Part shown: positions 7,562 to 62,702 of the stretch, one piece after another
Position numbering within the stretch: the first letter of the stretch is position 1
How the letters are laid out: the number at the start of each line of letters is the position of its first letter
Source of the DNA: Mesodorylaimus sp. YZB2_4
Taxonomy: Eukaryota > Nematoda > Enoplea > Dorylaimida > Dorylaimidae
NCBI GenBank assembly: GCA_030248295.1
Contig: JASANH010001073.1
Location: 124,001 to 188,000, forward strand
Length of the DNA stretch: 64,000 nucleotides
Reading direction: 5' to 3'
Program-made: the position numbers and the translations under genes
The notes under the pieces: generated by a model
What the model was told of the DNA's origin: nothing
Database searches by the model: none
The model's input: only the letters and a program-made list of their open reading frames with translations

Positions 7562-8792
7562 TCAGTTGTTGACGCATGGCAAGGGGGTCTTGTCACCCGG
7601 AGGGATCTTTTTGCCCTCGACAGCTCCCGTTTTCGGGTTGGCGCACCAGCTGTAGCCTTCGAAGTGTTGGACTGGAAGGTAGTCGCCTGAAATTGAAAGC
7701 ATGTGCGCACTGGACAGCACTACATACAGCATGCATAGCATCACAGCCATCACAGCAGAGTGCATTGTACTGCGTAGCGGCGATGAGGAGGTAGCGTGTT
7801 GACTAAGCCTTACCATTTTCCATGTTGCATTCAGCCAAGTGGTTACCCATCATTGGTTTGCGAGCGAGCTTCTCCTCGACTTCCTTGAAGCAAGCTCCGC
7901 ACTCGGCTTTCTTTTCGGTCGGGCCACGGCGGGTATTGGGGATCTCTTCACCAGTCATTGGGTTCACGCACCAGGTGTAGCCAGTCGAGCCGTGGTGCTG
8001 TTCAGTGTGGTAGTAACCGTTGTTGGTGCAAGCAGGAGTGTAGAAACCAGGAGTGCCAGCACGGCCGCGTTGTTCCATGATCTTAGCGAAGCACGGGCCT
8101 TTTTCTTCCATCGAAGCGTGCATGCTGACTAAAAGAGCAAACTGTGCCCGCGAGCCAGTAAGTTGTGCGGCAATCACTTACGTCCAACAACGTGCGCTTC
8201 CTTGTCGCAGTCAACCACGCGCTGGGATCCGGGTCCCGTGCGGGTGTTCTCGATTTCCTCGCCAGTGTATTTGTTGACACACCAGCTTTGGCCAACCGAG
8301 CCCCAGTGTTGCTTGGGGGCAAACAGACCATCGTCGTCGCATTCGGGAATGAAGTTGCCGACCATACCCTGAGGACGCAACATTTGGGCACGTTGGATGT
8401 GGCAGACTAAAACGAACCATCTTGAGCCTCTGAGAATGTCTGCTGTTCATGTTTGCCTTACTCGAGCATTCTGGTGGACCAGTGCGGAAGGTTTCACTGC
8501 CAGCTACCGGCTTGCCGCTGTCAGGCACAACGCACCAACATCGGCCAGTCGATCCGTGGCATTGGGTGGGCTCGAAATAACCGAAGTCCGTGCATTGAGG
8601 AATGTACTTGCCGGGCAACGGGTGTCCAGCGTCTTGTCTCGCCTTTGTGCAAGGTCCGACGGGTCCTTCAAAATAAAGGAGAATAGTTCTTTTGATGCAG
8701 TTTCCTACAACTATTTTGGGCTTACCGGTGCTTTGAGAAGCGACCGAAGCAATAATCAAAAAGAGAGAACCAGCCAAAGCCAGAAGCTGCAT
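7562..8792 (-). CDS. Secreted protein with four thyroglobulin type-1 domains
   Basis: About 311 residues. Exons on the minus strand: 8792-8726, 8665-8462, 8406-8182, 8128-7814, 7686-7562; every join is phase 1, the classic symmetric arrangement of shuffled extracellular domains. A signal peptide (MQLLALAGSLFLIIASVAS) is followed by four thyroglobulin type-1 modules. Domain 1 is canonical with six cysteines (QCHGSTGRCWCV). Domains 2, 3 and 4 have WCV or WCA and the outer cysteines, but both cysteines 3 and 4 are replaced (QHWGSVGQSWCV, QHHGSTGYTWCV, QHFEGYSWCA). Thyroglobulin modules can inhibit cysteine proteases of the papain/cathepsin type or mediate binding; which applies here is unknown. 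If the last intron is retained, the protein stops a few residues after NMENG. That intron also holds an in-frame signal-peptide-like stretch for the last exon, see findings. Confidence 0.86.
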
Positions 8793-8854
8793 TGTGTTGC
8801 TGCTGTCTGTACTGACGCGGTGAAAAAGAATGCTTGTCCATCCCTCGCACTCTC

Positions 8855-8862
8855 CTTTTATA
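8855..8862 (-). promoter_or_regulatory. TATA box of thyroglobulin-domain gene
   Basis: On the minus strand this reads TATAAAAG, 63-70 bases upstream of the start codon at 8792, a normal distance for a TATA promoter with a short 5' UTR. Confidence 0.65.
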
Positions 8863-10510
8863 CTTTTCCAAAGCACAAGCAGTCTTTTGCATACGCCGAC
8901 AAAAATATTTTGTCATTTCTTATCAGCAACTGATAAAACGTAAGTCCATCGAATATGGTACCAGGACCGTTTAGACACCGTTTTTGGTTGCAGGTTGCTG
9001 TTGCTAACATGAACTAAAGAAGCTTTAGGGTCAGAAATTGTCTGCGACAGGGGTGGTCCAAGTCAGTAAGCCCGAAAAGCACACACAGGTTCAATCGAGT
9101 ATGAAAGTGATAAGAGAAACTAAATCGGCCTGAGTGCGAATATGTTATCTGTAAAATATGTTCAATGACAAGAAGTATAAAGTAAAAAGGTGGATTTATG
9201 ATGGTTTTGGTAAACAGACGCAGCAGCTACTTGGTGTCAGTTGCGCGCTAAATATGAGCAGCGGAAGCAAAGATGCACGATTTTAGAGTTGAACAATGCC
9301 AGCGCACCACCCAGCCCGATGTAGCTAAAACTCAGGGTCATCTAGAGTACATCACCCTCAAATACAAAGTTTAAAGTTCGCACCAACATTTTGCTCATAA
9401 CAACTTGCCAAGTCGTCGATTTTAATAGGTTTAGTCGGAATTTAACTAATATGCATCTAAGGGGGGGGGGGGGGATAAAGTTTTTATTGGAAATTTAAAT
9501 TTCAAGTTCATTGTGGAGCCGCATCCTGCCAAGGAAACGGTCTTTTTATTCCCAGCATCTACGCGTATGTCGTGAATATTGGAATTCATTCTGAGTTTCT
9601 TTGCGCTCTTTGCTTTATTCTTTATCGAAAGCATCATACTACATACTTCTAATAGTCCACGCGCGTGGACTACTGGAAGTAATATGATGGAAGTAATATG
9701 ACGCGATTTCCATGGTCACTTCCGTCTCCGTGTAACAGTGATTGGGTGGTCGCCTTAGGCCTGACACGACTTCTCTCATTGCGGCCATTAGCAGCATAGT
9801 CAGCCAGCACTGGCCATTTAGCGGGGTCGCACGCAATCCAGTCCGGCAGTGGTGACGAGTCGCGTTTGCGTTGGTACTCGTAGCAGACAACTGGTACCTG
9901 AGCATCCAGCTTGCGGCGAAGTGAAAAGAGATATTGTTTGCTTTGTTTCAGGGGAAGAAACAAATCAGTAGTGGGCGCCTGATCCGTAATGTAATTACGA
10001 ACAAGACTCTGAGCTTTTATTTGTTTTCCACATGGATCAACTACAGTAAAACTTTTTCACCTCGCAGTGCTGACTGATAATATATCGATTGTCTGGTGTG
10101 AGTACCAAAGCGCGATTCTTAAACGATGGATTTCCTGGTTGTCCTTATTTTCTCATAATCAGAGGAGAAAGTGTCCGATTCAGATTAGATCAACAAAACG
10201 TGCTATATTCTACAGTATACACCCAAGAAATTTCGTTATGTTTCTCGTTTCCTGAGTTTAAAAAAAGTGGGGATTTTTCTGAAGGACTTTTCGTCAAAAA
10301 TAAACTCGAACGCCTTCACGCGTATGCCCAACTTGTTATAGGCCAGGGAGTCCACGAAATACTCGCCACGCGCGAACTACCACTAAATTTTTTAAAAGAA
10401 AACCGCACAGAAATGATATTCATTTATAAAATGATATAATTCTCCTTGTGCCCTTTATTAAAGTATTGCCCAATATATCACATCTCTTATCACCACATCA
10501 TCTTGTTTCA
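8863..10510. other. Intergenic
   Basis: No recognised gene. Contains a G homopolymer at about 9462-9473 and a perfect 20-bp palindrome at 9653-9672. A 97-codon minus-strand reading frame at 9670-9963 has no homology that I recognise and no signal or domain. Confidence 0.4.
9653..9672. repeat. Perfect 20-bp palindrome
   Basis: TAGTCCACGC followed directly by GCGTGGACTA, no spacer. Length and symmetry exceed chance for this base composition. It could be a dyad binding site or the end of a small inverted-repeat element. Confidence 0.6.
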
Positions 10511-13025: not shown

Positions 13026-15530
13026 GAGGGCCAGATTCATCAAAGAGTAGACCAGTTGGGAGCCCAACAGCTGGTTCCAAACCAGAACTTTCCCAAGTAT
13101 TGTAAGGTAGCGATGACACCAGTCGTCAGCTTGTTTGCGGAGAGCAGCTTTTTTTAATCGAAATTGATTTTATGTATAGCATCCTGATCAGAAGACAACG
13201 TAATACCAAGTAGCCTGAGTTTATCGACGCGGCTAATTCCGTCTGGGGTTTAAATCTGGCCCGGCCTAGGGCCCAAAGGCAAGCACTCAGTTTTCTTTTT
13301 ATTCGATCGCAGACCAGAAACCTGTCCAATTTTCATCCAGGAGACGTAAGGCTGAATCGGTTGACTGACTATCAGCCAGGAACAGTGTCGTATCATCCGC
13401 ACATTGGCTAGAAAAGTTGTCTTGACCACCGACATTCAGTCCACGAACTTCCGGGCGATACTGTAGCGCCGTTGTTAGAAAGTCAATAGCGATAATGAAC
13501 AGGTAAGGTGACGAAGGGCACCCTTGGCTAATGCCCCTGGCTAGCTGAATTCGGTATGCCCCTGGTTAGAAAGAAAGGGGTTATTCCCTACCTCGCTGCA
13601 AGAGTCTTTGTACGGGGTTTGGACTGCTGATATAATGGCCGAGCCAAGATTCTTGTACTTCAGTGCCAAAAATAGGAAATCCCAATTCACTGTATCAAAA
13701 GCTTTCTCAAAGTCCAGCGCTAGCAATAGACCAGACCCCTGCGGGTCTGACTTCGTACACTCGATAATGTCATGGGCCATCCTGACATTTTCTCCAATGT
13801 ACCGACCTGCCATGAAGCCAGTCTGGTTACTGAATCAGTGAAGGCAGGGGCTTCTTCAGCCGGGTTGCCAATGCCTTGGCCAATATTTTGTTGTCGCAAT
13901 TGAGAAGCGTGATCGGACGCCAGCTTCCCAAATCCGTAGGATCCTTTCCAGGTTTCGGCAACAACGAGATGACACCTTATTTTGACTTGGCGCTACTTCG
14001 CCCACTTCCAGCGAAGATTGGATAGACTCGATGCATGGCTTTCGGAGTACTTCCCAGAAACACCTGCACCATTTAACGGGCAGACCATTCCTACCTGGCG
14101 CCTTGCCCATCGCCATTCCCTTTGCTGCATTTTCAAACCCTCAGGACTGCAAGGGTTGATCAAGCTGAGCTTTGGCTTCATCGCTTAATTTACGCTAATC
14201 ATGCTCACAGACCCTCTGTAGCCAATCGTCAACTTCCGAAGCTTCCACTGCGTCTTTAGTGTAAATTTTAGCGTGAAAGTTGTGCCAGGCAGTTTGGATC
14301 TCCGAAGAATCAGTCATCTCCTTGCCCGTTCCATCCACAATCTTTAATACACACTTTCTTACCGCCATCCGCTTTTCAAGACCAAGAAAGTATCTGTTTG
14401 GTTTCTCCCCATACCCTATCCAGCGAACTCGAATACGCAAGATAGCTCGGCAGACGTCGTCCTCTAGGATAGTCTGCAACTCCGACTTCGCGTGCTCCAG
14501 CACAGCTCTCTCATATTGGGACAGTACTGTATTGGCTCCTGAGCGTCAAGGCGATCAATCATTGCTTGCAAGTGCAGCTTATACTGCCCGCCGCGAGTTT
14601 ATTTGAGCACTGTATTGCATTGACACATCGCGAGCAGTCATCTTTAGAAAGTCCCACTTTGACCTGCTATCCCAGTCTGCAGTCTTGTGCATGACCTCAT
14701 GGAGCTTTGCCTCGAGTTGGGCTTTGTATTCCGTGTGTCCCAGGATTGTCGTGTTCAACCTTCATATACCACGCCCCCGTGGGCGGAAACTAGGCCCCTT
14801 GATCTGAAAAACCACGCTTTTGTGATCACTGAAAATTGCATTCCTAATAACACAACTCTCCACTTGATACATCATGGCAGCAGATACCAGCCAATAGTCA
14901 AGACGGCATTTAACAGGAGGATGTCGCTGTTGCCACGTAAATTGCCTGGACAGAGGGTGTCTATCCCGCCAGCGGTCCATCAGATTCCAGTCCCCTTGGA
15001 TATTACGGATAGCTCTGACCGCCGGCACCTTCAAATACGTGTTCCCTCCCGACTTATCCAGGCCCTCATCAAAAACTAAGCTTAGGTCACCACCCAAGAT
15101 CACTGGTAATTGTTGTGTATAAGCGCATTAGTCCATCTCGAACTTGTTAGAAGAACCGCTACCGCCGTTGGACTGTACACATTAGCGAGGACTACCCTCA
15201 GGTCCTTCAACCACACTTCCACCAAGATGCAGCGGCCATCAAGGTCACACCATGTCCGAACTGCTGTCACATCAACCCCACGAGATAAGACTATTGCTAC
15301 TCCACATGTATTTCCTGCGCCATGCGAAAACCAGATACTTTTCGAATGCCCCCACTGCTGTTGCCAAATATGTTCACCACCTGGCTTACTGTGCGTTTCT
15401 TGTAGAAAACTAATGTCGAACTGCATACGCTTCATCCAACTGAAAACCTCTTTCCTCTTCAATTCAGAACCCAGTCCACGAACGTTAGTAGTTGAGATAG
15501 AGCAATTGTACGACATGATTTGGTATGAGA
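13026..15530 (-). mobile_element. Broken LINE retrotransposon: endonuclease and reverse transcriptase
   Basis: Minus-strand remains of a non-LTR retrotransposon ORF2. From 15516 down: an APE-type endonuclease (NVRGLGS, then FLQETHS, the active-site Glu, then VILGGDLSLVFD and FSDHKSVV). From about 14120 down: reverse transcriptase blocks (GKAPGRNGLPV; LALDFEKAFDTVNW; ISQGCPSSPYLFII; an active-site box reading CADDTTLFL). The endonuclease type and the KAPGxDGLP-like motif place it nearest L1/Tx1-like elements. Reading frame is lost several times (near 15105, 14700, 14190, 13850, 13540), so it is inactive. The copy seems cut at its 3' end near 13 kb; no target duplication or A tail was found. 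Confidence 0.88.
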
Positions 15531-22931: not shown

Positions 22932-25900
22932 ATGGCCAGCGCAAAGTGCGGTGTTCACGTGCTTCAATTGAAAGCGGTCGAAGTTCCGGATTTTCTGCAA
23001 CGAGGGCAACGATTTTACAAATTTGATGACGTAAGCTGCATCAAAATGCTTCGGGATAGGTCAATAGTCTTTTAACCTGTTGCTCCGTTGTGAAAACTCA
23101 AGGATACCCAGCGAGGGCAAAAATATTTTCAAAAACTTTTTATAAAGTTTATCTAAATAATTATTCAAACAGTCGAAATTTTTTTACAGCATTATTTTTC
23201 CAAGATTTAGACTAATTTAAGTACTCCTGCAATAGAATTTTGCCAAAGTTTTTTTGGCCTAGCATCATCGCAAAAGAAGGAATTTTTGGGCGAGTGTAAA
23301 CTTTTTCAGATTGAGAGTAAGGAAAGATTTTTGGTCGTGCGGATGCTAGCAGAGGGAGCAAGGGTTTCGATTGCCCTTGATGTATGGCCTGGCCACTTGT
23401 CTTCGCTTCCTCTCTCAATGCCAGATTATCTTATCCATTCAACATCTGGGGCACGAAAAAGAAGACTCGTTCAAAAAAGATCTTTTCACAAGAGCATTTA
23501 TCGATCTGCTGCCATGCACAGTCTACCTCGCATACTCGCACTGTGTGTGTCTACACTGAATTGTGTGAGTGAGTGAACGATGAAAGCTCTTTCTCTCCAA
23601 GGCAAAGCGTTAGGTGGAGCTTTGAGCAGGCAGTGAAAATAAAGTCGGATATATTTTATGGCAGTGGAGCACTTTCTGAATAAGGAAGTAGGTAGTTTTC
23701 TGCCGTCTAATCACCCCAATCACAGGCCGGGTCACTGGCTTCTAATTCAATTTATACCCGGGTTTTGACGCAGGAAAAGCTTTCTTTAGAATCACAGGTT
23801 TTTAGGAAAAGTGCATAAAATTCGAATAGGGGGAAGGATAATTAGCGAATGAGAAATGGTCCAGTGGTCGTCAGTTTGTAATCAAAGTAATGCGAATTGG
23901 AATTTGCCGAAAAGAAATGGTTTTTGTCGTGACTGGTTGAGTGCGTGGGTCGTAGCTGGGAGATAAGTTGATTTGTGCTTTTTCCATTTGCAATTCCTTA
24001 AAAATCCCCCGACTCTTAAAAAGCGTGGGAAACATTCCCTATTGATTCTAGTGGAATTTTTGTTGGCGGAGGGGGGGGGGAGGAAGAGTGACCCAGGACT
24101 TAAGCATAGGAGTGCAATTTTTAAAACCTTTTTCTTTGCGATGCCATTATTTCCTTCTCCACTTTTTGCATTTCGCTTCTTCATTTCCACTCTTCCCATC
24201 TTAGGGCTTCTAGTTTGGAATTTTGCGGCCTGTGAACCTGCTACCTTATTGATCGCAGTGACGGCCTTTGGGTTGCTGCTCGACGGTTTTATAAGGCTTT
24301 ATACTATAATAGGTCATGGGGCCGGGCGAGTGTCGCAGCTGGCGTCGGGCATAAAGGGACCACGTTGCCTAGCCATCCTATTGCCCCATAAATCCGCCTG
24401 TTTTCCTGCTTATCAACTGGAAAATGCGTTGTGTTCGCCAAAGGGGTGGGGCGCTACCCATAAAAGGTCTTCCGTTTCTTTTCCCTTCCATGTCGCTGTC
24501 TGGGTTTGCCCCAGTCGCATTATTATATTGGCCTGGTCTGGCTTGGGCTGATGGAATTATTTCCCTGCTTGGTCTGCCCCTGGTTATTCATGTTGCTTCA
24601 CAAAGTGCCTTCTTTTGTTTTATAGCAGTCTATTAGATGAAAAGGATAGAAATGCTGAAAAAGGACACTGGAAGAAATTGCGTTGCACTCGTAGGAAATA
24701 TGGGCTGTCGCGAGCTAGGTGTGGCCATTCTGTAGGAAAGAGGGGAAGTAGACGGAGGCGGAACGAAACACGATCTGGCACACAATTGATGGCAATGCAC
24801 ACAAGGACTTCTCATTGTCAGTCCCTCTAGCGCACTTTTGAGCCATGGCTGGTCTTTCACCATGGTTGCGCACGCAAGAGTGAAACCCAGTGCAAGCACT
24901 TCCAACAATCGCATGTAATTTCCTGCTTCCGTACAAGGCAGTACCAGATCGAAGCGATGGTCCGTCACATTTCTGATAATATACAGGAATACTTTCCACT
25001 GCAAATCGGACCAACATGAGGTGTCAAACTTGATGATAAAAAGCGAGTTGACCAAAAAACAGATAATTTCCAAAAATTGCACACCACTACCCGCTCATTT
25101 TTTTCAGATCGAGACATCGCTTTCGGGTACATTCGTCATCCTGAGGGTCGATCCAAAAGGTCATGTACTGTACTGGACCAGCACTGCAGCCCAGGTACAT
25201 ATGCATTTGTTTCTTGTTTTGTTTCGTTTTCGAATTCTCTCGATTGCAGAGCACGGATTACATCGATATAATGTACATACTGGATGCCCGATGCGGTCGA
25301 TCAGCCAAGCCACCTAAAGTATGGAAAGAGTGATAGAACAAGAAGTCTTTTTTCTCACCCAACAGGCCGTCCCTAATTGAAGTATATTACTTGCCACAGT
25401 CAGTAATCGCGTGGAATAACCCGAACCTAATTCTTTGTACGAACAGCTTCATTTACTCACTCGTCATCAGTTGCTAGGATTTTCATATAGGAAAAATGAA
25501 TACCTCTTCATAGTATTGAATTTTTTCCTGTTTTCCTAATTTCTCTAGCTGAAGAAAATGGAAAAATCTCGAGTTTCTAACATTGCGAAAGTGTACGATG
25601 AGGTAGCTTGACGGGTTGCATTCAGACTAATCCATGAAAATGTGCGTCAGAAAGACGGAAAAGGGGCTTTAGGAATTGATAATGCCTCGAGAAATTATTG
25701 ATTTCTTCCCCCCCCCCCCCCCCCCCCCCAAAGTGAGGAGGGACAGAGAAAAACTGATTTAAACGAGACGTGTTCCTAGGTTTCCATGAGGAACTAAAAT
25801 GCTGTGCCAGTCACACATTTTTAGGATCTTTAGTTACCGACACTTCGTTCTAGTTTAAATATTTTTGAACCTGTTCCCTCAAAAACCACTCCTGAGCACA

Positions 25901-40325: not shown

Positions 40326-42103
40326 ATTTGACAAAATCAGGCTCATCATTGGAGCGGGTCGGGTCTTTGATAAATAATGTCGAAAATACGCGAAAATAAT
40401 CGGTGATCGTATGCCTGACCAAACAAAAGCAGTGACGAAGACAGGCAAGCTGCCGACCTTTTCAATCAGCAACGTAGGACTGACACGATGGGGGCCCCTA
40501 GAGGGGGTGTTTATGGGGGAACACGTTGTCATATGTGAGCATTGTAACGTTTTAGTTAAGGGGAGAACGCAATTCAATCAATCGGGGACTGAGCGAATAT
40601 CGTTTAACAGGCCATAGGAGCGAATCACGATCGATTGGACTGGACTGGACGACAGGTACATACGCTAATTTTGTTCCTAGTTCGACTAGGCTCGATTGAC
40701 TGCCATTTCAGGTTCGACTTCGGATGCGAGTGACACGTGGCTGAATGATCGGCGCAGAGAAAAGCGATCTAGTCGCATCTCCAACGTGCTGGCCGCCAAT
40801 GAAGGACTCGACAAGGCGAATTGGGTCTCAGCTTTCATTCCCTTCTTGCTTCTTAATCGAGTTTGCTTTTAAGGTGTGAAAGCTGGAGCCATCTCCTATC
40901 CGTCCCTTTTTCAACTTTGTTGGTGTGTCACGAGAAAATAATCGAGCAGTCAAGCAGTGTACGAGTCCGTATGGGAGATGACCGCATTTCGATGGCCAGG
41001 TTGCGAACATGAAAACCCAGACAAGATGAGGCCAGGAAAACAGAAATAAAAATGAGGATAAAGAAACGATTAAAAAATGGACAGATTGATTCAAACTTGG
41101 GGGTTTCGAATTTTTATGTTCAAAAAATTGTAACCCTCATGCCTGGTAGGCCATGGCGAGTGGGAGAGAGTAATCAATACTCTCCCCTGGCTGGGAGACG
41201 TCAACCCCTCGGGTTGATGTTTCAGCCGTAGGTATAGTCGCTAGACTTGCTGACTTCGGTCAGCCACCTCCCTCCTACGCCTACCAGGCTTGGATAACAA
41301 TATGCTTTGTTAAAAACAACAAAAGATGTTGATGTTGCCCGTGTACGTGCCCGTTTGGTGCCTACCAAAAGAGTGGGTCATAAAATAGTTCATTGTTCAT
41401 AATTCAAGACGCGAGTGCTGTAAGCTTAAACCAAAAGCCCCTGACCTGAAAACTGAGTTTGGAAAGAACCCTGAAAAGAGTGGGTCATGAGTGACGAGAA
41501 GAGCGTTGTTCCTCGAGATATGTGTTACCTTGCGGAATGATGATCACGATGCCGTGACATGAAATAGTTCATAGTTCGTAGTTTACTGCAAGCCCGAGCA
41601 AGTATCTAAGTACGTACTGTAGAGCGCACTGACGGAAGGACCTAGGCGGAAAGAAGATGTGCAAAGAGGCGATGTGGGATTCGCAATAAGTAGGTAGCTT
41701 CAGCAGCACGAGAATGAAAACTGCAAGCTCGCCATCTGTAGGGAACCCTAAACGCAGTAAGCAGTTTCTAGGAGCCACCTTTCAGGTGTAACATAGATGA
41801 GGCCAGATGATAGGGTCTTCAGTACTCGTCAACCGTAAAAGTGTGACTCACGTGACCAGGCTTGAAGGATCTTCTTGATCACCTTTTGTCAGCCTGCAGC
41901 ACCCCGCTCATCAAACCATGAGACCTTGCCAGCTTCATTTTATGAATTTTTTCTAATTTTTTCAATACCTGACCACACAACGGTTTCACGCGTCGTGAAC
42001 ACTGCTGAGAATAGATCATCACGTAAAAATCTGTGACATGAGAAATTATTTACACAGAACCCGTCTGATTGCCGAGCATGACCAGCCCGCCCAAAAAATT
42101 CTG
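40326..42103. other. Intergenic with one MITE-like repeat
   Basis: No gene seen. Contains the inverted-repeat element at 41138-41292. Confidence 0.45.
41138..41292. mobile_element. Short inverted-repeat element
   Basis: Ends CATGCCTGGTAGGC and GCCTACCAGGCTTG are near-perfect inverted repeats. The interior holds GACGTCAACCC and GGTTGATGTTTCAGCC; its complement recurs at about 61064-61103, 58856-58895 and, in part, 11361-11393. Confidence 0.65.
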
Positions 42104-42111
42104 TATATATA
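42104..42111 (+). promoter_or_regulatory. TATA box of poly-cysteine gene
   Basis: TATATATA, 62-69 bases upstream of the start codon at 42173; a start of transcription near 42135 would leave a 5' UTR of about 40 bases. Confidence 0.65.
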
Positions 42112-42172: not shown

Positions 42173-42872
42173 ATGGCATCGGTCAAGATTCTGATCGCCC
42201 TTTTTTGCATGACCATGGCTTCGGTGGCATTGGCCCGACCAACTGAGAAAGATGGTGATAAAAGGCTGATTCGTTGTCAGATCAGTGAAATAACAAGAAA
42301 GTTTTTTAGATGAATCTAAACAGGTCGAAACCAAGGACATGTCCCGCGCCAAGCGATGCAGCTGTGGTGGTGGCGATGACCACCACATGGGCATGGGCGG
42401 AATGGGCGGCGGCTGGGGACGCGTCCAACGCGAAGTCGAATCCGTCCACACGAACAAGCGATGCGGCGGCGGCGGCGGCTGGGGCAAGCGTGAGCTGCAG
42501 TTGGTTGGACGCGCCGACAGCGCCGACTTCGAGCCGAGTACGGACAAGCGCATGGCCCGGACGAAGCGTGGCTGCTGCTGCTGCTGCAAGTGCTGTTGCT
42601 GCTGCTGCTGCTGCTGTTGCTGTTGTTGTTGTTGCTGCTGTTGCTGCTGCTGCTGTTGTTGCAAGTGCTGCTGCTGCTGCGGCAAGCGTGCTCTGGCCGA
42701 GCGTGCCGCCAAGATGGCCAAGCAACAAATGTTCTTCCAACGCGACGCCGAGGTCAGCCGCCAACAACGCTGCATGAACGGACGCAGTGCCGAGAAGAGA
42801 ATGAACAAGCGCTGTGGCGGTGGTGATATGGGAGGACACGGGGGTATGGGTGGTGGATGCAAACGTGCATAA
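42173..42872 (+). CDS. Secreted dibasic-processed preproprotein with Cys24 core
   Basis: About 214 residues. Exons 42173-42254 and 42310-42872, phase 1 join over a 55-bp intron ending TTTTTTAG. A signal peptide (MASVKILIALFCMTMASVALA) is followed by blocks separated by Lys-Arg: a Gly/Met/His-rich block starting CSCGGG and ending GGGWGR; CGGGGGWGKR; an acidic spacer; G-C5-K-C24-K-C5-GKR; a basic Gln/Met spacer; CGGGDMGGHGGMGGGCKRA. Gly before Lys-Arg in two blocks is the amidation signal of neuropeptide precursors. The cysteine run is TGC and TGT mixed (42573-42680), in frame with the signal peptide. I know no family with this run. Possible roles: neuropeptide-like or antimicrobial precursor, metal-binding peptide, or crosslinked structural peptide. 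The poly-Gln frame on the other strand lacks gene structure. Confidence 0.75.
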
Positions 42873-43121: not shown

Positions 43122-44749
43122 CAGAGTCCTGCACGGGTATGAAAATCGTACCCTACCCGTACCCGCTGGACGATCTCTGTACCCGTACCCAAACCCGTAC
43201 CCGGCGTACCGTACCCATACCCATACCCGTACCCGGCTTTTCGATAAATGTTCGAATGGGGTACAAAAACAGAAAAGTAATCAATTCATGAAAATAATCG
43301 CAGAAAACCAGAGTTTTCAAGGAGATTCGACCAGTTTTTATTTAAAAAATTATTCACCATCACAAGATAATAGACTTACAAGACTTAGCAGTAGTCTGAG
43401 CCAAATGCTTTAGCGCTAAAAGCCTGAAATGTCTATTTTGAGTAATGCATTGATTTTCTTGTTCCTCTGGGAATAGACGTCTCAATTAAAACTGAAAAGC
43501 CTGAAGCAACAACAACCTGACAGTGTATAAAACTCTGAATGCATGTTTGAGGAGTAACCAACTTCCACTTGATAAGGAATGAGGAATGAGTCTACCAGAA
43601 ATAAGCAGGTGCCCTATGATACTAAACCTAGATCAGTGACTCTGCTACCAGACGTGATTTTCATTTGAGCGCAAGTGTAGCTTGTATGCAGGAGGTCAAC
43701 AGCAACTACTGCAGATAAAACAAGCTAGTTTGTGTGCGGGAGCCAGTGTCACACTTCGATGAGACGTGTCTGATCGTGAGTCGCAGGACATGCTTACAAG
43801 AAAGTCCTATCCTACATAAAAGCGACATTGCTGTCCTAATCTGAGGGACCTGCTGACCTCAGAGTGAAAGTAAAAGAGTGACCTTGGATCCTGAAAAGAG
43901 TCAAGGTTGCTGCACTGGTGCATATCTGTCATATACAAGTATGGACCTTTTTTCCCTCGGCCCCCTCTTAGAAGCTCAGAAATACTCTTTGACCTGTTCT
44001 TCTACCTTGTTTCAAAGTTTTTTAACTGAAGATGCTCTGTACTGCAGTTTTATTTCCCAGAAATTTTCGCTTTAAATCCAGCTTTTAAGCATCATTTTAT
44101 CCAAGTTTTTTTGAATTTTTCTCGTCGCTGCTTTGATAGGAGCTTAGAAAGATAGACAAGAAGCCAGTCAGTCAGTCGGTTCGTGTGACACCCACCACTT
44201 GTCTTGCCGTCCTTCACGGATGGCGCCTTTTCGGCTTTTTGTCATGAACCAGGTGCTTTTTTGCAAGTAAGCAACCATTTTCGAATCTCAAAAACGCTTA
44301 AATATCCATATCTTTCTATCAGTGTATATCGGTTGTGAAAAGATATAATATATAACCTATTTTCTTTGAGGATTGCACGCCCTTCACGTGCCGCTTGTAC
44401 ATTCCAAAAGAAAACAGATAGTAGATATGGTTTTAAAAAGAGATGAATATGATTTCGATATCGATATGTCAAATGATATCGATATCGATTAGATATAGAT
44501 CAGGGGAATGGATATCAACAGTAGTCACAACTAGCCTCAAAATAGCAGACATCAGAACTGCTTCGCTGAAAACAGTCTCAAAAGGCATAAGATTTAAATT
44601 TACAGCGCTGTCATAAATATGAATTTTAAAAAATTAAACAAGAACAAATACCCGTACCCGTCGCCTCTTACCCAAACCCGTGCCCATACCCGCCGGGTAC
44701 GGGTGGGTGCGGGTACGGGGACGGGTATGGGTACTCATGCAGGACTCCG
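43122..44749. mobile_element. Non-autonomous hAT transposon, 1628 bp
   Basis: Terminal inverted repeats CAGAGTCCTGCACGGGTA (left) and, inverted, CGGAGTCCTGCATGAGTA (right). Each end continues into a sub-terminal array of (A/G)TACCCGTACCC units. The element is flanked by an exact 8-bp duplication GCGTGGTT at 43114-43121 and 44750-44757, the size made by hAT transposases. The GGGTATGAAAA start of the left end also resembles Ac-type termini. No transposase is encoded, so it must be moved in trans. AT-rich interior includes GATATCGATATCGAT repeats near 44455. Confidence 0.9.
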
Positions 44750-60163: not shown

Positions 60164-62702
60164 ATGTCCGTGTTCCATTTCCTCGCGCCATGCTTCACCC
60201 TTCTGCTGCTGCCACTAACATCAGGCAATTGTGAGAACTCGACTTATCAAATCCAATTACACTCTGGGCCTATTCGAGGGCGACTGTTCGAGACTGGCAG
60301 CACCAACGAGGCTGTCATATTCCTGGGCGTGCCATATGCCCAGCCACCTGTGGGTCATCTCAGATTTCGCCCTCCTCGACCACCCTCGCCATGGGTCGAG
60401 GTGCTGGACTGCCAAGAATACAAACCAGCGTGCTGGCAACTACACACTGCCATGGACGGGTTCAAGTACACGGGCATCGAAGACTGCTTATATCTGAATG
60501 TGTTCGCTGGACGAACGTGCGTCGACCACGCTGGGTCCAAGAAGTGTCCAGTCCTCTACTACGTCCATGGCGGGGGATACGATGCTGACACACCAGCCGT
60601 GTTCTCGTCTGAACTGTTAGTGGATAACTTTGCCAGTCAGGGTTTGATTATGGTCACTGTGCAATATCGATTGAATGCATTTGGATTTTGGAGCACTGGA
60701 ACGGACATGGCTAGGGGCAATTATGGCATGCAGGGTAAGTGGTAAGGAGGAGGGAGGGAAAGACTGATCACTGGTCATCGATGTGTGGTGACCACCGATA
60801 ATGACTGACCAGGCCATCAGTCGATGGTCCCTAGTTAACTGTCGACCAATCACTGACCATAATCGATCGGTGGGGAATAGTTCGGATGCAGCTGCCTTTC
60901 CTCTCCTGAGGTAATCAGAACTGATCCGACTGATCATGATGAGTGAAACAGCAAAAAGTGACCACGATTTAGTTTGGCTAAAAATATATGGCTTGCTCCT
61001 AGGTTATACTGGCTCAGTGTCAGCTCAAACATTGCGCGCCCACGCCCTATTCAACCTATGAGACGGCTGAAACATCATCCTGACGGATTACGTCCCCAGC
61101 TGCAGAGGATCATGTGCTAGCGCGTCTCCATACAGCTTGTGTGTTGGTGACTACTGCCATAGGTGGCAGTGACAATCAAACTATGTATGGTTTTGCCTTT
61201 ACACATTCCTCATTTTCAGACATGATCGCCGCTTTACAGTGGATCCAGCTGAATATCGATCGATTCGGTGGTGATCCATCACAAGTGACAATTATGGGTC
61301 ATAGTTCTGGCGCAGCAGCTGTCTCACTCCTGAGTTTATCACCAAAAACTGATAGACTTTTCAATCGACTGATCATGATGAGTGGCAGTGGGGGCACCAG
61401 AGCCTTCCAAAATGACCTCGATTTTTACTGGACATTGGCTCAAGAGTTGAACTGCGCTCCACGAGGGCATCGAAAACTACCGAAAATAAAAGCAGCTATC
61501 GTGGATTGCATGAGACAAGTGCCCGCAGATACTTTGGGCAGGGCGTATTTGCGACTGCAAGGTAAGCGGTTGGAAATCTGAGGACTGATTGAGCTCTCGA
61601 TCAGCAATAGTGGATGCATTCGTGATCGATTGCACCAAAATTCTGACTGACATTAGGAGTCAAGTAAAATTGCGACTGCAAAGTAATCAATTCCGTATTT
61701 TCTATTTCAGATCAGTACAAATTTGCGACGGCACCCCGTAACGATGGTCCCGATGGTCTGTTCCCATCATCTCTCTCGCAACTCTTCTCCACCCGTCGCC
61801 CCTACGATTCCATGATGGGTACCACCATTCGAGAACAGCCCTACAATCCTAGCGAGAACGAGACAGTCAACGCCACCACTGTGGCGGAAAAATGTGCACA
61901 AATAGTTTACACTTTTAAGTACCGCCACCCCGAGTCCATAATCGCCGAGTGCCAACATCATTACACCAACGTGAACTCGAGTGACAACATGACTTCTGAC
62001 TTTTGGATTTCCCAAGTGGAGACATTGGAAAGTGACCATCTCTATCACGCCCCCTGTTTCAAGGAGGCAGATAGTCTTCGATCCCGCGGCTCCACAGTCT
62101 ATTTGTACAGTTTCGACTATTCGAAACAAGGCAAGGAAAGGTCCACTCCATTCCACTCCTTCGACCTAACCTACCTGATCGGCCTCCACCCATTCCCATT
62201 CGACCAACGTGACCAGCGACTACAACACGTCTACGCCCCCTTGTTCGCCAACTTTGCCAAATATGGTACCCCCACGCCGACCACCCCACAACACGACCCC
62301 TCCCACTGGTCACCACTGCGCACTCCACGCGGGTCCGACTACTACAGCGTGGACCTGCCCATCGGAGTCATGAAGTCCCACTACCACACGCAGGCCATCC
62401 TGTTCTGGAACTATCTGGTCTTCGCCTTGGAGAATCGAAATGAGGCCTACTGGGGCGCCAATCGAGGACTCATCTTAGCCACCAACACCAATTCCAGTTC
62501 CCCAGAGGAGAACGCTTCCAGCACAATCTACTTCTGGCGGGTGGCATTCAGCATCACTCTGGTCGTCCTCATCTTGACCCTGCTCGCCCTCGCCATCTTC
62601 ATCATTCGCGAGGCCAGGCTCCACCTGAAACGACGCAGTGCCACAGAAGATCGTGCCTTGATGTCCGAATTTAACGAGCCCACCTATAAAACCTTTAATT
62701 AG
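60164..62702 (+). CDS. Type I transmembrane carboxylesterase/cholinesterase-family protein
   Basis: About 634 residues. Exons 60164-60734, 61220-61561, 61711-62702, both joins phase 1. Signal peptide (MSVFHFLAPCFTLLLLPLTSG), then the alpha/beta-hydrolase carboxylesterase fold: FLGVPYAQPPVGHLRFRPP, EDCLYLNVF, oxyanion-hole YVHGGGY, VTVQYRLNAFGFW, nucleophile elbow GHSSGAAA, then GTTIREQ (candidate catalytic Glu) and PFHSFDL (candidate catalytic His). So the Ser-Glu-His triad looks intact, unlike neuroligins and gliotactin. After the domain comes an Asn/Ser linker with N-glycosylation sites, a hydrophobic helix (VAFSITLVVLILTLLALAIFII) and a short cytoplasmic tail with KRR. Topology matches adhesion members, active site matches enzymes; substrate unknown. 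Could be an ectoenzyme or an adhesion protein that kept its triad. Confidence 0.92.

Follow-up and report, generated by a model that had tools for sequence, protein, structure and literature searches.

The window analysed here, a stretch of 64,000 nucleotides from the nematode Mesodorylaimus sp. YZB2_4, carries a gene for a putative secreted precursor whose central block is almost pure cysteine. Comparison with its paralogs demonstrated that the gene is real, that the family is old and that, in its main branch, selection acts on the cysteine, because the codons of the core, the codon positions at which it varies, the dN/dS of its flanks and the stops in the other frames all agree. We consider it somewhat probable that these genes represent a new class of biomaterial or metallopeptide in a nematode lineage, that is, predicted alpha-amidated and nearly homopolymeric cysteine of 24 to 42 residues, encoded by about 27 prohormone-like genes and with the cysteines under strong selection. 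If this is true, the product would be a selected, secreted poly-cysteine, unusual in itself and made by an ordinary processing plan. Because thiols cause misfolding and cross-linking in the secretory pathway, cells are expected to avoid long cysteine runs; to our knowledge, runs of this length are not known as selected, secreted products. The existence of about 24 conserved genes thus raises the questions of how 34 thiols lying almost side by side are dealt with in the endoplasmic reticulum, what role a poly-cysteine amide might play and whether nature could use it as a metal-thiolate or disulfide polymer.

The window gene (42173-42872, plus strand) translates into a protein of 214 amino acids, the parts of which are collected in Table 1. 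Translation bore out the core announced in the preliminary description, Cys5-Lys-Cys24-Lys-Cys5 with 34 cysteines: together with its flanking glycines it covers residues 115-152 (42570-42683), it is followed by KR at 42684-42689 and its cysteines are encoded by 25 TGC and 9 TGT codons. Nine Lys-Arg pairs were counted where at least four had been claimed, and the TATA box and the stop codon closing the frame were found as described. The phase-consistent intron that had also been proposed was the best-scoring choice in a simple home-made score of predicted splicing, which favoured phase 1 in all 23 genes scored, with the splice sites of L002, L003 and L014 possibly off; this scoring left out L012 and L050, the latter being readable straight through without an intron. 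By eye, the hydrophobic leader in its separate exon recurs upstream of exon 2 in the paralogs, and it is followed by Ala-Arg-Pro or Gly-Arg-Pro in 14 of 24 genes. Many paralogs have a shortened form of the block CGGGGGWGKR, such as CMNGKR or CMSGKR. An Rfam scan of the window gave no match, and neither did an exact 23-base pattern built from the GGGGGWG stretch.

Table 1. Parts of the poly-cysteine gene and its putative promoter, in coordinates of the window.
Feature	Position	Strand	Basis
Promoter-like pair, CATGAC (42077-42082) and TATATA (42104-42109)	42077-42109	+	Pattern match in the window
Exon 1: start codon, signal-peptide-like MASVKILIALFCMTMASVALA, start of propeptide	42173-42254	+	Translation; signal peptide by eye
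Putative intron, GT..AG, 55 nt, phase 1	42255-42309	+	Top score among in-frame choices; predicted splicing
Exon 2, stop codon at 42870-42872	42310-42872	+	Translation
Block CSCGGGDDHHMGMGGMGGGWGRVQREVESVHTNKR	42357-42461	+	Translation, block comparison
Block CGGGGGWGKR, amidation-type end	42462-42491	+	Translation, block comparison
Conserved spacer ELQLVGRADSADFEPSTDKR-MARTKR	42492-42569	+	Kept among paralogs
Poly-cysteine core G-C5-K-C24-K-C5-G-KR	42570-42689	+	Translation, codon counts, paralogs
Conserved spacer ALAERAAKMAKQQMFFQRDAEVSRQQRCMNGRSAEKRMNKR	42690-42812	+	Kept among paralogs
Last block CGGGDMGGHGGMGGGCKR-A and stop	42813-42872	+	Translation, paralog comparison
Family spacer segment, sequence ELQLVGRADSADFEPSTDKRMARTKRG			

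Protein searches of the organism's own assembly (145 Mb, 1067 contigs) showed that the window gene belongs to a family of 27 related places on 16 contigs. Twenty-four further places were found at E <= 2.4e-6, with L019 and L020 being two pieces of one gene. Two divergent places lie on contig C2, L061 (C2:1613025-1613732) and L087 (C2:864300-866000), and the latter, whose initial match reached only E 0.31, was confirmed as a true relative on reading. The count of 27 takes in neither L026-L030 (E 0.002 to 0.1, with stops) nor the six weakest matches (E >= 1.5, with stops), and weak matches on C124, C171, C92 and C27 proved on inspection to be unrelated repeats or an unrelated reading. Five members are located on contig C247 and three on C46, and close duplicates are L015/L016 (97%), L018/L019 (92%) and L023-L025. 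C109 and C174 carry one head-to-head pair each, whose arms are 97% and 92% alike within their contig versus 81-84% between contigs; because the arms are more alike within than between contigs, this suggests gene conversion inside each palindrome.

The cores of these genes follow a small number of layouts. Among the 24 genes used for counting, C5KC24KC5 is found in seven, C5KC27 in two, C4KC32KC4 in two and C4KC31KC4 in one, whereas C5KC26KC5, C5KC22KC5, C5KC18KC5, C6KC25KC5, C6KC11KC5 and C5KC17KC5KC5 occur once each. Pure cysteine makes up the core in the form of C36 (three genes), C26 and C41 (one each), and a single gene has (CCDCCK)14CCDCC. Core length ranges from 24 to 42 residues, with 89 in L050 and exactly 36 in 10 of the 24. 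The possibility that K-C24-K forms a transmembrane helix was set aside, with central runs of 11 to 32, five genes without Lys and one that alternates CCDCCK. L012 also has a C5KC24KC5 core, but with one in-frame TGA in exon 2. The two divergent places were read downstream of their first exons. L061 displays many CCG-type blocks and then an end of the form KRCGGG-C31-GKK. L087 shares the block plan of the family, with NKRMARMKR ahead of the cores and GKRAL behind them, and has two cores, both ending in GKR, in which the Cys runs are interrupted by Ser, Gly and His; it may represent either an older state or a branch that binds metal.

The evidence for selection comes from the codons and reading frames of the 24 genes, a set from which L012 had been dropped beforehand for its in-frame TGA and in which L061 and L087 were not included. 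Their cores consist of 572 TGC and 270 TGT codons (842 Cys), 43 AAG, 6 AAA and 15 GAC and of no others, so that 49 Lys and 15 Asp are the sole departures from cysteine. Variable core sites at codon positions 1, 2 and 3 numbered 0, 0 and 15 in the seven C5KC24KC5 genes (108 sites), 0, 0 and 17 in the three C36 genes (L015, L016 and L017), 0, 0 and 19 between L007 and L010 and 0, 0 and 1 between L023 and L024. If each site had a one-third chance of falling at the third position, the probabilities of the first three sets would be 7e-8, 8e-9 and 9e-10, shared ancestry being ignored. A change from G:C to A:T is equally open to codon position 2, where it gives Tyr, and to position 3, where it is silent, and silent changes alone were observed. 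In the eight pairs counted over the whole exon, differences accumulate at the third codon position, for example 12, 7 and 55 between L001 and L009. Pooled pairwise dN/dS was 0.10 before the core and 0.12 after it (dS 0.93 and 0.71) in 18 of the 24 genes, with pairs within the family not being independent; the six genes left out, L021, L022, L023, L024, L025 and L050, had diverged too far for codon alignment. The coding frame contains a stop in none of the 24 genes, versus 21, 24, 10, 21 and 21 of them for the other five frames.

These results bear directly on the reading of the locus as a CTG/CAG-type microsatellite, non-coding and wrongly taken for protein sequence, or as a gene translated in another frame (poly-Ala, poly-Leu or poly-Gln). 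The core is indeed reported by TRF as a period-3 array with 79% matches, and long open reading frames are present on the opposite strand. Nevertheless, the codon positions, the stops and the core codons of the paralogs refute both versions, and the longest unbroken TGC run of the window core is just 6; we give this reading a practically negligible chance. The other-frame reading, which the preliminary description had named in advance as fatal to its claim, is thus contradicted. The content of the core is kept strictly and its length loosely. Against strictness for cysteine itself stand L087, which tolerates Ser, Gly and His, and a core pN of 0.029 over the pooled set of 18 aligned genes, which is due to Cys/Lys swaps between layouts; silent sites of the core are saturated across layouts, and therefore it has no dN/dS ratio.

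The way in which the core would be released can be read from its borders. Gly precedes the core and Gly with KR, RR or RKRRR follows it in all 24 cases, and Gly with basic residues also follows the cores of L061 and L087. KR sites are retained across paralogs, where they bound conserved blocks, and in L023-L025 the sites are mostly single Arg. Kexin-type convertases cut at KR, and Gly followed by basic residues is an amidation signal, so that the product is likely to be a poly-cysteine amide, G-C5-K-C24-K-C5-NH2. The other blocks that begin with Cys are rich in Gly (38%) and also contain Trp, with Met at 9.9%, Cys at 9.4% and His at 3.9% over 63 blocks from 21 genes; this count took none from L023-L025, whose blocks are mostly bounded by single Arg. 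From these features we infer the secretion, cleavage, amidation and function of the precursors, and the claim of a secreted precursor with a nearly pure Cys block has become well supported at the level of sequence by a 27-place family under purifying selection. Matches to Cu2_monooxygen (PHM-type) in the genome numbered 25, of which 21 were over the cut-off by the tool's own marking. Such a presence would be expected of any animal and is not specific to the poly-cysteine family. The matches, of PHM/TBH type, fall in several clusters (G000, C57, C273, C341 and others) and are more than expected for a nematode.

Two alternatives start from the same processing signals. The spacers are strongly conserved as well, which weighs against the release of separate pieces for a material and may indicate that the precursor acts uncut, as a secreted block protein used whole in which the KR pairs are merely charged linkers. 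This is distinctly unlikely, as Gly and basic residues placed directly after the core (24/24, plus L061 and L087) form a precise processing signature. The second alternative is that these are true peptide hormones or neuropeptides. Both the dibasic block boundaries and the Gly donors of amidation before basic residues (24/24) of a prohormone-type plan were found, along with a leader that by eye looks like a signal peptide. We regard this as very improbable in view of the 27 places, the loose core length and a lack of any repeated discrete receptor-like motif, and poly-Cys is implausible as a receptor ligand.

The preliminary description knew of no described family with this layout, and searches led to the same result. 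In a set of 5.8 billion proteins with nematode entries, including those of C. elegans, a first search for the family found no homologue at E <= 10 among 864 candidates, and a profile of ten members found none at E <= 1 among 7994. These negatives are weakened by the low complexity of the sequence and the poor annotation of such genes, and the profile search scored just the candidates with the largest number of shared words, a selection in which words of poly-Cys may displace relatives. No Pfam family matched the window protein or the ten members at the curated cut-off; GRP and YxzE were listed, both below threshold for the window protein, and the nearest was the Gly-rich GRP (26.7 bits, with the cut-off at 30). 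NCBIfam matched neither the window protein nor L021, and its single match to L050 (16.5 bits, with the cut-off at 1700) was taken as chance, as were two matches to a chloride transporter among PDB sequences (E 3.4). Structure prediction on 17 family exons produced no confident fold (mean pLDDT 41.5, pTM 0.13). Residues 114-155 of the exon are modelled as a helix at low confidence, and the prediction would neither support nor refute a role as material. Literature on poly-cysteine and cysteine repeats, mostly from outside subscription journals, reported no secreted poly-cysteine peptide family.

Our preferred reading of the function, a tentative one that falls a little short of probable, is that the genes encode precursors of an extracellular material rich in thiols and joined through disulfides and/or metal-thiolate bonds; metal buffering and defence are its nearest competitors. 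The product would enter the secretory pathway and be cut at its Lys-Arg sites, releasing the core as alpha-amidated G-C5-K-C24-K-C5-NH2 alongside Cys/Gly/Met/His peptides. Within the precursor, the conserved spacers would hold the thiol-rich pieces apart, and core length together with the Lys or Asp interruptions would tune solubility until assembly. After release, the pieces may be locked by disulfides and/or bonds between thiolates and soft metals (Cu, Zn), the metals being suggested by residue make-up only, into an extracellular structure such as cuticle, feeding tooth or stylet, eggshell or a secreted seal. Thiol density seems to matter, because the length of the core is loose and its content is not, which fits a material better than the ligand of a receptor. 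A building material is favoured because content is strict, length loose and genes many, because the promoters have TATA boxes and because the side blocks carry Cys, Met and His, soft-metal ligands set on Gly. Contrary to this, 24 to 41 free cysteines in a run should burden transport through the endoplasmic reticulum. Cnidarian minicollagens offer a parallel as secreted, disulfide-locked capsule material with a cut propeptide, but their Gly-X-Y triplets and CxxxCxxxCxxxCC domains were absent by eye from the family translations. Ultra-high-sulphur keratin-associated proteins share the dense Cys, used there for disulfide cross-linking, and differ in that they are not secreted precursors and that their CC repeats are interrupted by other residues every few positions.

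The same residues could instead serve a secreted metal buffer, in which the core and the Met/His/Cys-Gly peptides would bind Cu, Zn or another soft metal outside the cell for storage or detoxification, like a metallothionein without its fold or spacing. We find this possible but rather doubtful. The side blocks do provide ligand residues, and both the (CCDCCK)14CCDCC core and the Cys/His/Ser/Gly cores of L087 look metal-binding, yet contiguous cysteines make a poor geometry for the usual metal clusters. Metallothioneins are built otherwise: they are cytosolic, lack a signal peptide and have CxC or CC motifs with spacers, so that the family has their extreme Cys content in common but neither their Pfam profile nor the cytosolic CxC pattern. 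A closer case in favour of the buffer may be Ts-PCHTP, whose source belongs to the same wider nematode group as the host of this family. It is a Cys-rich protein with a signal peptide and, in the accessible part of its description, it binds iron, nickel and zinc, is reported to occur in the cuticle and all larval tissues and has about 47 kDa with 36 Cys (8.8%) across two domains and a His tail, the longest Cys run of its consensus being CCC (PMC2954182). The design of Ts-PCHTP/p43, as far as that text gives it, shows no plan of blocks bounded by KR and differs in its spaced Cys, and by eye neither its pcd consensus nor the C-terminal His tail is in the family translations. The His among the Cys of L087 would suit either metal reading, buffer or metal-locked material.

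A defensive function was also considered, in which the genes would be a Dorylaimia counterpart of the C. elegans Gly-rich NLP/CNC antimicrobials of the epidermis, with poly-Cys as an active or anchoring part. The family is clustered and expanded, and its blocks end in GGW-type pieces (CGGGGGWGKR), features that resemble the small secreted precursors, gene clusters and Gly-rich GGW pieces of the nlp-29-type and caenacin (CNC) peptides. We know of no Cys runs and no poly-Cys core in the known NLP/CNC peptides, which gave no sequence match to this family. The homology test, negative at E <= 10 for 864 candidates and E <= 1 for 7994, is weakened by repetitive sequence. Positive selection has been reported for the nlp-29 cluster, against a dN/dS of about 0.1 here, and we judge defence unlikely. 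The poly-cysteine family, with its apparent prohormone-like precursor logic, fits none of the sequence families tested (Pfam, NCBIfam, PDB sequences).

The promoters bear on how the genes may be expressed. By pattern, 24 of 25 promoters have a TATA box 69-109 bases upstream of the start codon, and the TATAAG of L022 lies outside the pattern used. These boxes would fit strong, switched expression. In 19 of the 24 genes, where shuffled sequences would give 3.4, a CATGAC-like site on either strand occurs within 60 bases upstream of the TATA box, usually between -25 and -31; it is absent in L014, L021 and L023-L025. This motif was chosen with the sequences already in view, and it may in part be shared through common descent. 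The combined pattern CATGAC-N19..21-TATAWA, made after inspection of the paralogs, has two matches in the window versus 0.01 expected, the other being at 24288-24318 on the minus strand. Genome-wide, the exact pattern is not enriched, with four matches versus three for the reversed control, and the shared promoter was rejected as a clue to tissue since it indicates no wider gene set. The nematode spliced leader SL1 was detected neither by Rfam, where controls also gave none, nor by a pattern with one mismatch; trans-splicing may occur all the same, and the negative counts neither for nor against a Dorylaimia-type host.

Other features were noted in the neighbourhood of the gene. Downstream of it, a segment of about 1.6 kb (43124-44747) is bounded by inverted repeats, GAGTCCTGCACGGGTA and TACTCATGCAGGACTC, that are 88% complementary and have GTACCC-type repeats just inside; it looks like a non-autonomous DNA transposon. 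On the minus strand, LINE-like endonuclease pieces lie at 14762-15516 (Exo_endo_phos, one over and one under the cut-off) and thyroglobulin type-1 domains in two frames at 7803-8876. Finally, positions 60164-62702 contain a carboxylesterase gene of at least three exons joined by eye, with a hydrophobic stretch near its end; its best named matches are from Trichuris suis, Trichuris trichiura and Romanomermis culicivorax, which makes a Dorylaimia-type nematode the probable host, and the best-scoring match overall is 48% identical.
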